64,000 bases of DNA from positions 124,001-188,000 of the forward strand of contig JAHLLI010000008.1 of the NCBI GenBank assembly GCA_020444245.1. Direction: 5' to 3'. The notes below the pieces were generated by a model. That model worked only from the letters and a program-made list of their open reading frames with translations. It was not told the DNA's origin and searched no databases. Within the stretch, counting starts at the first letter, position 1; each line of letters begins with the position of its first letter. Source of the DNA: Actinomycetales bacterium (GTDB taxonomy: Bacteria > Actinomycetota > Actinomycetes > Actinomycetales > Cellulomonadaceae). The position numbers and the translations under genes are program-made. Below are positions 6,919 to 17,107 of the stretch, piece by piece.

Positions 6919-7839
6919 ATGCGGGCCGTCCAGTTCGACGCCTACGGCGGCATCGACGTCCTCCGGGTCGGTGACGCGCCGGACCCCGAACCGGGCCCGG
7001 GCGAGGCGCTCGTCCGGGTGCGCGCCGCGGGGACGAACCCCGACGACGTGCCGATCCGCGAAGGGATGCTGGCCGAGCTGTTCCCGCGCCCTTTCCCGGC
7101 CGGCCAGGGCAGTGACCTGGCCGGAGTGATCGAGGCAGTCGGGCCGGGCGTGACCCGGATGTCGATCGGTGCCCACGTGCTCGGGTTCACCCACCGCCAC
7201 GACGCCCAGGCCGAGCTCGTCGCCGTGCCCGTCCACCACCTGGTGCGCAAGCCGGCGTCGGTGAGCTGGGAGGTCGCCGGCGCCCTGCCGCTCGTCGGGG
7301 TGACCGCCTGGGCGGCGGTGCACGCGGTCCAGCTGCGCCCGCGCGAGACCGTCGTGGTCAGCGCCGCCGCCGGCGGGGTCGGCAGCCTCGTCGTCCAGCT
7401 CGCCCGCCGGGCCGGGGCGCGGGTCATCGGCATCGCCGGCCGCCACCACCACTCCTGGCTGCGGGAGCACGGCGTGACGCCGGTGGAGCACCACGGCGAC
7501 ATCGCCGAGGCGGTGCGCCGGGCCGCCGCCGGGCCGGTGCACGCGCTGATCGACTGCTACGGGCACGGCTACGTGCGGATGGGCGTCGAAGAGCTCGACG
7601 TGGACCCCGGCCGGATCGACACCGTGGTCGACATGGTCGCGGCCCACCGGTTCGGCACCAAGAACCGCGGTCAGGCGTCGGGCGCCCACGCGCACGTGCT
7701 CGACGAGCTGGTCCAGCTGCTCAGCGCCGGAGAGCTCGAGGTGCCGATCGCCGCCGCGCTGCCGGTCGAGGACGTGCAGACCGCCTACCGGGTGCTCGAG
7801 GAGCACCACACGCACGGCAAGATCGTCCTGATGTTCTGA
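6919..7839 (+). CDS. NADP-dependent zinc-type alcohol dehydrogenase/quinone oxidoreductase
   Basis: [17 protein letters not shown]...[15 protein letters not shown]...[27 protein letters not shown]. Confidence 0.9.
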
Positions 7840-12285: not shown

Positions 12286-12906
12286 CTACTCGAAGCGGCT
12301 CGGGTCCCCCGCGCCCACCCTGACGACCTCGGGCTCCGGTCCGGACCAGTCGATCACCGTGGTGAGCTCGGGGTTCACGGGGCCGGCGTCGATCACTGCG
12401 TCGACCGCGTGGTCGAGCTCCTCCTTGACCGTCCAGGCGTCCGTGGGCGGCTCGTCCGCGCCGGGCAGCAGCAGCGTGGAGGACAGCAACGGCTCCCCGA
12501 GCTCGCGGACCAGGGCGAGCGCCACCGGGTGGGAGGGGATGCGCACCCCGACGGTCCGCTTCCTCGGGTGGGCGAGACGGCGCGGGACCTCCTTGGTGGC
12601 CGGCAGGATGAACGTGAACGGCCCGGGCGTGCTCGACTTGATCGCGCGGAACTGGATGTTGTCCAGGTAGACGAACCGGCCGAGCTGGGCGAAGTCGGAG
12701 CACACCAGCGTGAAGTGGTGGCGCTCGGACAGGCCGCGGATGCGCCGGATCCGGTCCGCCGCAGTGTGGCTGTCCAGGTGCGCGCCGAAGGCGAACCCGG
12801 TGTCGGTCGGGTACACCACCAGTGCGTCGTCGCGCAGCATCGCGACCACCTGCGCGACCGCGCGGGGCTGCGGGTCGTGCGGGTGCATCTCGACGAACCT
12901 GGCCAT
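12286..12906 (-). CDS. L-threonylcarbamoyladenylate synthase family (YciO/Sua5-like)
   Basis: YPTDTGFAFGAHLDS...ADRIRRIRGLSERHHFTLVCSDFAQLGRFVYLDN...KSSTPGPFTFILPAT. Confidence 0.92.
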   Translation of the reverse strand: MARFVEMHPHDPQPRAVAQVVAMLRDDALVVYPTDTGFAFGAHLDSHTAADRIRRIRGLSERHHFTLVCSDFAQLGRFVYLDNIQFRAIKSSTPGPFTFILPATKEVPRRLAHPRKRTVGVRIPSHPVALALVRELGEPLLSSTLLLPGADEPPTDAWTVKEELDHAVDAVIDAGPVNPELTTVIDWSGPEPEVVRVGAGDPSRFE

Positions 12907-12951
12907 GCGACGAGGGTAGGCCCGCGACCGGCCCGTCGGGCCGGCACGCTC

Positions 12952-13030
12952 GTTCGCATGCGTACACGTGCGCGCGCTCGTCCGGCGGGGCGTTCGAACG
13001 TGCGCCGGAGCTCGCATGCGAACACCTGGG
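12952..13030. repeat. Intergenic repeat element, copy 1
   Basis: GTTCGCATGCGTAC (12952), GTTCGAACGTGCGC (12992), GCTCGCATGCGAAC (13010); same spacing and long blocks identical to copy 2 at 14843. Confidence 0.75.
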
Positions 13031-13063
13031 CGGGAGGGGCGGACGTGGCGAGAACCGCCGCGC

Positions 13064-13804
13064 TCAGGCGGGGATCAGGCCCAGCAGGCCGCCCAGCAGG
13101 CGCATCTCGTGGTCGAAGAACGCTGCGGGGTCGTCCAGGACGTCGAACGTCCGGTGCCCGAACACCTCGAACGACACCGCGCCGAACAGGTGCGTCCAGC
13201 CGATCAGACCACGCACGACCATCGAGTCCGGCACCTCGGGCGGCATCGTCGCGCGCAGTGGGGCGATCGCGGCGTGCATCCGCTCGGCGTCCGCCCCTGG
13301 CGCCGGCACCGGCAGCCCGGCGGCGAGCGCGTCGCCCAGCAGCGCCATGAGCAGGCGGGGGATCCGGGTCGCCGGCCCGACGGTGTCCTGCGGTGCGGCG
13401 TACCCGGGCACGGGCGAGCCGTAGATCAGCGCGTACTCCTGCGGGTTGGCCAGCGCCCAGTCGCGTGTGGCGTGGCAGATGGCCATCCAGCGCTCCGCCG
13501 GTCCCGCGTCGTGCACGGCCGCCTCGGCGGCCTCGGCCGCCTCGCCGAGCGAGTCGTAGCCGGCGATGATCAGCCGGGTCAGCAGCGCGTCCTTGTGCGG
13601 CAGGTAGCGGAACAGGGCCGACGGGGCCATGCCCATCTCGCGGGCCACCGCGCGCAGCGACAGCCCGCCCGGGCCGACCTCGGCCAGCTGGGCGCGCGCG
13701 ACGTCGAGGATCTCGGCCGTGACGGCGTCGCGCGCTCGCTCACGGGCGAGCCTGGCTCGGGGTGGCACGGGCCCATCCTGCCCCGACGCGGTGAACGACG
13801 ACAA
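13064..13804 (-). CDS. TetR/AcrR family regulator with WHG-like C-terminal domain
   Basis: VTAEILDVARAQLAEVGPGGLSLRAVAREMGMAPSALFRYLPHKDALLTRLI HTH; C-terminal ANPQEYALIYGSPVPGY. Confidence 0.93.
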   Translation of the reverse strand: MSSFTASGQDGPVPPRARLARERARDAVTAEILDVARAQLAEVGPGGLSLRAVAREMGMAPSALFRYLPHKDALLTRLIIAGYDSLGEAAEAAEAAVHDAGPAERWMAICHATRDWALANPQEYALIYGSPVPGYAAPQDTVGPATRIPRLLMALLGDALAAGLPVPAPGADAERMHAAIAPLRATMPPEVPDSMVVRGLIGWTHLFGAVSFEVFGHRTFDVLDDPAAFFDHEMRLLGGLLGLIPA

Positions 13805-13863
13805 CGGATGCGACCAGCGCTCGCGTCCCAGATCGACGCTCTTGACGTCCGGCCCATCGCCGA

Positions 13864-13874
13864 GAACACTGTTC
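13864..13874. promoter_or_regulatory. Candidate TetR operator GAACA-C-TGTTC
   Basis: Palindrome in the TetR/epimerase divergent intergenic region, extended by GCAGTTC. Confidence 0.45.
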
Positions 13875-13906
13875 GCAGTTCAGACCAATGATCTCAGGAG
13901 GGTGGC

Positions 13907-14821
13907 ATGGCACGGTACGTGGTGGTCGGGTCCGGGAACGTCGGGTCCGCGGTGGCCCGCGAGCTGGCCGGGCGTGGCGACGAGGTGCTGCTCGTCTCGC
14001 GGAGCGGCCGTGGGCCGGAGCTCGACGGGGTGCGCCGCGAGGCGGCCGACGCGACGGACGCCGAGCGTCTGGCGCGCCTCGCCTCTGGCGCGGTCGCCCT
14101 GGTCAACGCGGCCAACCCCGCGTACCACCGTTGGCACCTCGACTGGCCGCCGCTCGCCGCCTCGCTGCTGACCGCCGCCGAGCGGTCCGGGGCCGTCCTG
14201 GTGACCGTCGGCAACCTGTACGGCTACGGGCCGGTCGACGTCCCGATGACCGAGGACCTGCCGCTCGTCGCGCAGACCGTCAAGGGGCGGGTCAGGGCCC
14301 GGATGTGGCTTGACGCGCTCGCGGCGCACGAGGCCGGGCGGGTCCGCGCGGTCGAGGTCCGTGGCTCGGACTACCTGTGCCCGGGTGACCAGAGCATGCT
14401 CGGCGACCGCGTGATGGGGCCGCTGCTCGCCGGGCGGCGCACCCGGGTGCTCGGCGACCTCGACCAGCCGCACACCTGGACGTCCGTCCCCGACGTCGCG
14501 CGCCTGGTGGCCGCGGTCGCGCAGGACGAGCGCGCGTGGGGTCGGGCGTGGCACGTCCCGAGCGTCGCTCCGCGCACCCAGCGCGAGGTGCTCACCGACC
14601 TCGGCGCGCAGGCCGGTGTCCCCGTCCGGCCCGGCGTCGTGCCGCGGGCCGCGCTGCGCGCGGCCGGCCTCGCGTCACCGCTGGTGCGCGCGCTGATCGA
14701 GATGCTCTACGAGTTCGACCGCCCGTTCGTGCTGGACTCCACCGACGCGCAGCGCACCTTCGCCCTCGCCCCGACCCCGTGGGAGGACCAGGTCGAGGCC
14801 CACGTCGCCGCCTACCGCTGA
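13907..14821 (+). CDS. NAD-dependent epimerase/dehydratase (SDR-like)
   Basis: MARYVVVGSGNVGSAVARELAGRGDEVLLVSR; GNLYGYGPVDVPMTEDLP; SD GGAGGG. Confidence 0.88.
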   Translation: MARYVVVGSGNVGSAVARELAGRGDEVLLVSRSGRGPELDGVRREAADATDAERLARLASGAVALVNAANPAYHRWHLDWPPLAASLLTAAERSGAVLVTVGNLYGYGPVDVPMTEDLPLVAQTVKGRVRARMWLDALAAHEAGRVRAVEVRGSDYLCPGDQSMLGDRVMGPLLAGRRTRVLGDLDQPHTWTSVPDVARLVAAVAQDERAWGRAWHVPSVAPRTQREVLTDLGAQAGVPVRPGVVPRAALRAAGLASPLVRALIEMLYEFDRPFVLDSTDAQRTFALAPTPWEDQVEAHVAAYR

Positions 14822-14842
14822 CACGCCCGCCGCGCGCCGGAC

Positions 14843-14925
14843 GTTCGCATGCGAACACGTGCGCGCGGTCGTCCGGCGGAGGGTTCGCGTGCGCGTTCTG
14901 GTTCGTATGCGAACACGCGGGCGGG
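14843..14925. repeat. Intergenic repeat element, copy 2
   Basis: GTTCGCATGCGAAC (14843, perfect palindrome), GTTCGCGTGCGCGT (14883), GTTCGTATGCGAAC (14901); offsets 0/+40/+58 as in copy 1. Confidence 0.75.
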
Positions 14926-14955
14926 GTGGGAGGGCGGCCACGCGGGGGGAGGACG

Positions 14956-14993
14956 CCGACGCGTGCGCACCCCCACGGGCGCGCACGCGTCGG
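14956..14993. terminator. Bidirectional hairpin between convergent genes
   Basis: CCGACGCGTGCGC - 12 nt - GCGCACGCGTCGG, perfect 13-bp stem. Confidence 0.65.
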
Positions 14994-15003
14994 GAGTCGT
15001 CGG

Positions 15004-17070
15004 CTACTCGGGCTTCGGGAGCTTGTCCACCAGGTGCGACGGAAGGATGTCGTAGTGGTCGTGCTCGGAGACGAACGAGCCGCGCCCGCCGGTGAGCGAA
15101 CGCAGGTCGAGCACGTAGCGGCTCAGCTCGGCCTCCGGGACCATCGCCTGGATCGTGCAGCGCCCGTCCGCCGACACCTCCGTGCCTGCGATCCGGCCGC
15201 GCCGCGAGGACAGGTCGCCCATCACGTCGCCCTGGAGGTCGACGGGCACGGTCACAGTGACCATGGACACCGGCTCGAGCACCACGGTCCCGGCCTTCGC
15301 CATCGCCTCCTTGAGCCCGAGCGCGGCCGCGGTGCGGAACGCCATGTCGGAGGAGTCCACCGAGTGCGCCTTGCCGTCGAACGCCTCGACGCGCACGTCG
15401 ACCACCGGGAAGCCGTGCGCCCCGCCGTTCTCCATCGCCTCCATGACGCCCTTCTCGACGGCAGGGATGTAGTTGCGGGGGATCGAGCCCCCGACGATGG
15501 AGTCGACGAACTCCGAGCCGCTGCCGTGCGCCAGCGGGCCCACCCGCAGCATCGCCACGGCGTACTGACCATGCCCGCCGGACTGCTTCTTGAGCTTGCC
15601 CTCGACCTCGACCTGGCGCGCGATCGTCTCCTTGTAGGCGATCTTGACGTCCTCGGTCTCGACGTTGACACCGAACTTGCGGGCCAGCCGCTCCAGGGCG
15701 ACGGCGATGTGAGTGTCGCCGGTGCCGCGCAGGACCGTCTGGTGCTCGGTCCGGTCCACGACGAGGGTCTGGTCCTCGGCGGCGAGCCGCTGGAGGGCGC
15801 TGGACAGCTTGTCGTCGTCGGCCTGGGTGAGGGGCTTGAGCGCGAGCGCGTAGGGCGTCGGGCGGTGCGCCGGGCCCGGGACGGTGACGGTGGTGCCCTT
15901 CTTGGACAGCGTCGACCCGGTGGGCGTGCCGCTGAGCTTGGCCAGCGCGGCGATGTCGCCGGCCTGGACCTCGTCCACCGGCAGGTGCTCCTTGCCGCGC
16001 AGCTTGAACAGGCCGTGCACACGCTCCTCCTGGCCGGTCACGGAGTTGGTGAGCCGGTCCTCGTTCTTGACCGTGCCGGAGAGCACCTTGAACACCGAGA
16101 CCTGCCCGACGAAGGGGTCGGCCATGGTGCGGAACACGTGCAGCAGCGGGTCGCCGCTCGGGTCCGCCGCGACCTCGATGGTCGCGCCGCCGGGCACCGT
16201 GACGGTGGTGTCGCGGTCCGCGGGCGACGGCCCGAGCTCGCAGATGAAGTCGGCGAGCCGGTCGATGCCGACCCCGGTCACCGCGGAGCCCACCAGCACC
16301 GGGAACTCCTGGCAGTCGCGCACCTCGTGCACCAGGGCGCGCTCGAGCTCGGCGGCCTCGACGGGCTCGCCGGACAGGTAGCGCTCGAGCTGCTCGTCGT
16401 CACCGGAGACGATCTCCTCGGCGACCTGCTCGTGCAGCTCGGCCTCCTCGGCGGCGACGTCCTCCGGCATCTCCGCGGTGTGGTGCGTGCCGTCGGCGTC
16501 GTAGTCGAAGCCCGTGTCCGAGAGCACGTCGGCGACGCCGTGGAACGCCTCCTCCTCGCCGATCGGCAGCTCCAGGGGCACCAGGCCGGAGCCCACCAGC
16601 TCGCCGAGCTGACCGAGCACCCGGTGGAAGTCGGCGTGCTGCTTGTCCTCCTTGGTGCAGAAGATCATCCGGGGGATGCCGGCGTCGGCGGCCTGCTGCC
16701 AGGCGATCTCGGTGCCCACCTCGACGCCGTCGACCGCGCTGACCACGACGATCGCGAGGTCGGCGACCGCGAGCGCCTGGTCCATGCCGCCGGCGAAGTC
16801 GGCGTACCCGGGGGCGTCGATGAGGTTGATCGTGTAGGTCTGGCCGTCCGGGGCCTTCCACTCGAACGGTGCGATGGCGGGGGACAGCGAGATCCCGCGC
16901 TTGATCTCCTCCGGCTCCGTGTCGCAGACGGTCGTGCCGTCCTCGATCGAGCCCAACCGCTGGACCACGCCGGCGCGGTGCAGGAGCGCCTCGGCCAACA
17001 TGGTCTTGCCGACACCGCTGTGGCCCACCAGGGCCACATTCCGGATGACAGGCGTCGCCGCCATTCCCAT
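15004..17070 (-). CDS. Elongation factor G-like GTPase (EF-G paralogue)
   Basis: NVALVGHSGVGKTMLAEALLHRAGVV G1 motif, NLIDAPGYADF, EF-G domains; ATG with GGAGAAGGA SD. Confidence 0.93.
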   Translation of the reverse strand: MGMAATPVIRNVALVGHSGVGKTMLAEALLHRAGVVQRLGSIEDGTTVCDTEPEEIKRGISLSPAIAPFEWKAPDGQTYTINLIDAPGYADFAGGMDQALAVADLAIVVVSAVDGVEVGTEIAWQQAADAGIPRMIFCTKEDKQHADFHRVLGQLGELVGSGLVPLELPIGEEEAFHGVADVLSDTGFDYDADGTHHTAEMPEDVAAEEAELHEQVAEEIVSGDDEQLERYLSGEPVEAAELERALVHEVRDCQEFPVLVGSAVTGVGIDRLADFICELGPSPADRDTTVTVPGGATIEVAADPSGDPLLHVFRTMADPFVGQVSVFKVLSGTVKNEDRLTNSVTGQEERVHGLFKLRGKEHLPVDEVQAGDIAALAKLSGTPTGSTLSKKGTTVTVPGPAHRPTPYALALKPLTQADDDKLSSALQRLAAEDQTLVVDRTEHQTVLRGTGDTHIAVALERLARKFGVNVETEDVKIAYKETIARQVEVEGKLKKQSGGHGQYAVAMLRVGPLAHGSGSEFVDSIVGGSIPRNYIPAVEKGVMEAMENGGAHGFPVVDVRVEAFDGKAHSVDSSDMAFRTAAALGLKEAMAKAGTVVLEPVSMVTVTVPVDLQGDVMGDLSSRRGRIAGTEVSADGRCTIQAMVPEAELSRYVLDLRSLTGGRGSFVSEHDHYDILPSHLVDKLPKPE

Positions 17071-17107
17071 TGTCCTTCTCCTTCGTTGGAGTGGCCCTAG
17101 GGGCCCC

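Follow-up and report, generated by a model that had tools for sequence, protein, structure and literature searches.

The window analysed here, a 64,000-nt stretch of an Actinotalea-like genome, carries two similar short repeats that enclose a TetR-family regulator gene and an epimerase gene. The arrangement raises the question of whether the repeats carried the gene pair in or out, serve as protein-binding sites or RNA structures, or belong to a dispersed element with a history of its own, and an earlier note on this DNA had considered each of these options.

A repeat pair around TetR and epimerase genes

Both copies described in the note are present. The stretches 12952-13034 and 14843-14925 are 83% identical, and a BLAST search of the whole genome with the second copy returned the first at 83% identity across all 83 bases (E = 2e-16). 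Their palindromic cores of 72 bp occupy 12952-13023 (copy C21a) and 14843-14914 (copy C21b), with no strand assigned to either. GTTCG-type sites are found at offsets 0, +40 and +58 in both, as had been observed, and the outer 14-bp dyads are spaced by exactly 58 bp in each. The site inventory was correct to this extent, but it under-described the CGAAC sites at +9 and +67; a further CGAAC at +27 is degenerate in C21a and C21b and clear in other copies. The two copies had also been said to share one orientation, which carries little information: the orientation of each is ambiguous because each is nearly palindromic.

The TetR and epimerase genes are indeed enclosed by the pair and are neighbors of the element rather than parts of it. 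C21a sits at the junction between the 3′ end of the TetR-family regulator gene (13064-13804, minus strand; PF00440, PF13305) and the start of a YciO/Sua5-like gene (12286-12906, minus strand; Sua5/YciO/YrdC family, PF01300), with its end 40 nt past the TetR stop codon. C21b lies where the NAD-dependent epimerase/dehydratase-family gene (13907-14821, plus strand; PF01370) and an elongation factor G (EF-G)-like GTPase gene (15004-17100, minus strand; Pfam-checked) converge with their 3′ ends. It starts 21 nt past the epimerase stop codon, and its arms are C-rich on the left and G-rich on the right. The Pfam check covered the genes of the window, and gene names at the other copies are read from translations.

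A family of ten intergenic palindromes

The earlier note had proposed scanning the genome for further members, and there are eight besides C21a and C21b. Seven copies gathered by BLAST and a pattern search were aligned and made into a first covariance model, a search of the genus with this model yielded three extra copies from the same genome, and a second model was built from all ten. With the ten-copy model, the clear copies in the genome (4.41 Mb) number exactly ten, each at E ≤ 5e-13, and the next tier of matches begins at 1.5e-4; the initial pass of the model searches scored only the best 150 candidates, however, and a few decayed copies could have escaped. A loose pattern (TTCGN4CGA..TCGN4CGA) proved of no use, matching 45-141 times per genome, mostly in coding sequence. 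The ten copies align almost gap-free with identities of 54-76% between them; they are therefore old and their movement is historical. BLAST of 18 other genomes of the genus found no copy, a check for plasmid or viral carriage gave no match, and literature searches brought up no account of the repeat family. Contig C21 (208 kb) carries four of the ten, at 47.8, 120.3, 137.0 and 138.8 kb, which is more than chance predicts (binomial P = 0.0008 before correction for contig number). Two copies within 2 kb are mildly unusual, 0.04 such pairs being expected for ten random sites.

Each copy is an imperfect 72-bp palindrome with the arrangement CGAAC-N13-CGAAC-N8-GTTCG-N13-GTTCG. The fixed spacing that was evident in the window recurs throughout, with GTTCG at 0, CGAAC at 9 and 27, GTTCG at 40 and 58, and CGAAC at 67, usually intact or with one mismatch per site. 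The outer sites that complete the 14-bp dyads are usual, not universal, being lost in C7, C21c and C6. Between 44 and 52 of the 72 positions match the reverse complement of the same copy in five of the seven copies compared; the remaining two, C25 and C10, are decayed. Flanking sequence is rich in C on the left and in G on the right, loosely prolonging the inverted symmetry. The whole non-coding element comes to about 107 bp around its 72-bp core. Within these flanks the ends of the unit cannot be placed to the base, and no clean target-site duplication is defined.

All ten copies are intergenic, and nine have an edge 8-40 nt past a gene 3′ end, which bears out the bias that the note had thought worth examining. 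Five junctions are convergent, four tandem and one divergent. The convergent sites involve genes or RNAs: epimerase/EF-G-like, RNase P RNA/redoxin, sdhB/yihY, rpsA/gnd, and a protein gene/SRP RNA. The tandem copies directly follow a stop codon (TetR/YciO, an ABC permease and two on C21); the divergent copy separates the start of an aldo-keto reductase (AKR) gene from that of uppP.

Such a placement is compatible with a structured RNA at gene 3′ ends, either a bidirectional U-less terminator or an mRNA-stabilizing hairpin, in which selection would act on the structure. Hairpins do form: eight of the ten copies fold better than dinucleotide shuffles (z from -2.7 to -9.5 on the strand tested), and the C7 copy takes the place of a different hairpin in the relative. 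However, C25 and C10 lack such a fold, rpsA and the EF-G-like gene each retain another hairpin, and one copy lies between two gene starts. Across the alignment of seven copies, 70.4% of cells are paired in the full hairpin, compared with 73.2% for shuffles, and compensatory changes in base pairs show no excess. Pairing lost without compensation fits the decay of an ancestral palindrome and argues against selection on RNA structure. The region 12880-15020 contains no T-tailed intrinsic terminator, and an Rfam search of 20 loci with copies and relatives matched the RNase P and SRP RNA neighbors and nothing in the element. The hairpins of the RNA proposal are thus real, but selection for their structure is improbable.

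Empty sites in the closest relative

Among relatives with a named record, Actinotalea sp. M2MS4P-6 (L045) is the closest, and genome G001 has the same gene arrangement and identities. The order YciO-TetR-epimerase-EF-G-like in G001 is that found here (86, 71, 70 and 90% identity, respectively), and the gaps beside TetR and epimerase both lack the repeat. The epimerase/EF-G gap measures 75 bp in G001 and 182 bp here, giving a net insert of 107 bp at C21b. The AKR/uppP gap measures 99 bp versus 207 bp (+108 bp), and the gap between the protein gene and SRP RNA 15 bp versus 121 bp (+106 bp). The genes sdhB and yihY overlap in G001 and are 124 bp apart here. At C21a, the excess over G001 amounts to only about 29 bp, so the 107-bp step is not seen there. 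The rpsA, rnpB and PadR-like sites were left out of the comparison, since the neighboring gene differs in G001. The best argument that the element behaves as a discrete, lineage-specific inserted unit is the constancy of this ~107-bp step over three independent sites; deletion of the element in G001, instead of insertion here, would be less economical.

Two further differences were seen near these genes. Downstream of rpsA stands gnd here and a dephospho-CoA kinase-like gene in G001, so that gene order changes at the element-bearing gap (L127:2788-2939, L181). Several tandem GC-rich units of ~110 bp (GGGCTCCGCGGGTCGGCGGGCCGCGGAGCCGCC...GGTGCCGCTATCCGGAACGGAGGTTCCCC) occupy the gap that precedes the EF-G-like gene of G011 (L118, about 7000-7280).

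The same comparison bears on whether the repeats are the recombination arms of a TetR/epimerase cassette, as their position might suggest, two copies of one family flanking exactly these two genes. The earlier note had said that related strains keeping the genes without repeats would count against cassette insertion or exchange, and G001 has all four genes in order without a repeat. The other eight copies, moreover, are single and flank no gene pair. We regard the cassette as having next to no likelihood: an origin of the TetR and epimerase genes by a repeat-flanked cassette is refuted, although a later deletion by recombination between the copies is possible. A resemblance to integron-like gene cassettes was rejected as well, the gene pair standing at its ancestral place, and divergent TetR/epimerase pairs are found in many other actinobacteria. 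The other half of the note's proposal, a dispersed intergenic element, is upheld by the ten intergenic copies and the net insert of ~107 bp at three orthologous sites.

The repeat was also considered as the TetR operator and discarded, because the intergenic region has a conserved dyad of its own and the relative has a TetR gene in the same place without the repeat. This dyad, GAGAACACTGTTC (13862-13874, no strand), lies in the 102-bp region between the TetR and epimerase genes and is unlike the repeat. Similar dyads occur in the orthologous regions, and on this sequence comparison it is the likely operator of the pair. TetR regulators with a divergent neighbor less than 200 bp away usually control that neighbor (PMC3511530). 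Given this rule and the operator-like dyad, the repeat is not needed to explain the gene pair. The best explanation for the position of the TetR and epimerase genes between two copies is chance or local spread of the element.

Known repeats and the half-site geometry

Proteobacteria supply the best-described short interspersed palindromes. Actinobacteria go unmentioned in the main text of a survey of palindromic repeats (PMC3733652). REP/REPIN and BIME sequences are short intergenic palindromes whose paired units lie about 20-100 bp apart and can form a single hairpin (PMC3733652; REPINs, PMC3116915), and the REP type prefers convergent and unidirectional gene junctions (PMC3733652). The element resembles them in all of these features, being palindromic, intergenic (10/10) and biased toward 3′ ends (9/10). 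However, REP/REPIN families usually exceed 100 copies, whereas the element has ten; their GTAG- or CGTC-tag at one hairpin end is absent from the ten-copy alignment; and four mirrored GTTCG/CGAAC half-sites stand in place of two REP hairpins. A REP mobilized by a RAYT (Y1_Tnp) transposase was rejected, since a PF01797 search of the genome gave no matches while its controls were positive. CGTC REPs are likewise palindromic repeats reported without a dedicated transposase (PMC3733652), but their sequence is unrelated to the element as far as inspected.

The likeness to MITEs is that the element is non-coding, about 100 bp long, lineage-specific and an inverted repeat throughout. Presence and absence differ by a constant 106, 107 and 108 bp at three orthologous sites, the fourth (C21a) differing by about 29 bp, and terminal inverted repeats are provided by a core that is imperfectly palindromic along its length. 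Elsewhere in the genome, no sequence outside the family carries the outer palindrome with its flank, and no transposase partner of the element was found. The half-sites also recall the actinobacterial LexA (SOS) box, CGAAC-N4-GTTCG, which has the same letters. In the element, however, 7-8 bp separate the inner half-sites, which are doubled at steps of 18-19 bp, and the consensus contains no site with the LexA spacing.

The element is best read as working like a REP/REPIN or a MITE while fitting the definition of neither. We put at roughly two in three the probability that it is a low-copy, non-coding, nearly palindromic interspersed element, non-autonomous and inserted between genes at ten places in this Actinotalea-like genome. 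On this reading an enzyme supplied in trans would have spread it, with the mirrored CGAAC/GTTCG sites or their hairpin as the probable substrate. Copies would persist where a hairpin is least harmful, right after stop codons, and in places the element may act as a 3′-end hairpin or terminator for the neighboring gene.

The half-site pattern extends beyond the ten copies. Four loci of G014, a sister species in the same genus, carry the strict arrangement CGAAC-N13/14-CGAAC-N7/8-GTTCG-N13/14-GTTCG, as do four copies of a second repeat in the element's own genome; the sequence between the sites differs. A reversed-pattern control gave zero, but the scanned loci were partly gathered with the model and the count is not unbiased. 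The second repeat, in which the second-tier matches of the element's own genome lie, is MITE-like and 0.3-0.6 kb long. Three copies (L161:2098-2411, L162:2051-2586 and L164:1939-2508) have 23-bp terminal inverted repeats, TGAGTTCGGCAGCAAGGTGTGAT, and others are degenerate or partial (L163, L160:186-444 and L123:774-1044). Read by eye, an imperfect 8-bp direct repeat stands outside the ends in two copies. The interior is variable, with the four-site GTTCG palindrome in four copies, which shows that this palindrome can travel inside a MITE-like unit. A family-wide R1 search gave matches (E ≤ 1e-3) in 6 of 81 genomes (5 of 25 genera, its own included); several resemble coding repeats or generic perfect hairpins, and two, in G103, have mirrored GTTCGAGC sites. 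Palindromes whose arms each contain GTTCGCAC or GTTCGAGC twice in direct orientation were seen in G015 (L166, L167; same genus) and G103 (L188, L192; another genus).

The fixed geometry gives the inserted element its main rival, a multi-site array for a DNA-binding protein (architectural, a regulator or a recombinase), in which half-sites at fixed 18-bp and 13-bp steps would be bound and copies kept through use. The half-site offsets are the most constant feature of the family, the four-site arrangement recurs in G014 and in the second repeat with different sequence between the sites, and spacing kept despite such divergence could mean a functional site. Nevertheless, the orthologous sites of the closest relative lack the element, the neighboring genes share no function, and the outer sites are gone from C7, C21c and C6. 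Part of the constancy also stems from how the counted loci were chosen, since the model that gathered them was itself based on the arrangement. We therefore consider such an array rather unlikely, though it is a stronger contender than the structured RNA. With similarly low confidence, the four-half-site palindrome may be a conserved recognition unit of a putative actinobacterial DNA-binding or mobilizing protein, its geometry outlasting the sequence between the sites across species and across two repeat families of one genome.

The comparison corrects a tempting misreading in which an ordinary conserved regulator-enzyme pair appears as a repeat-flanked cassette. The family is also a compact, low-copy case whose empty sites are mapped in a named relative and whose half-site geometry is unusually fixed, so that the mover or binder of the palindrome is testable.
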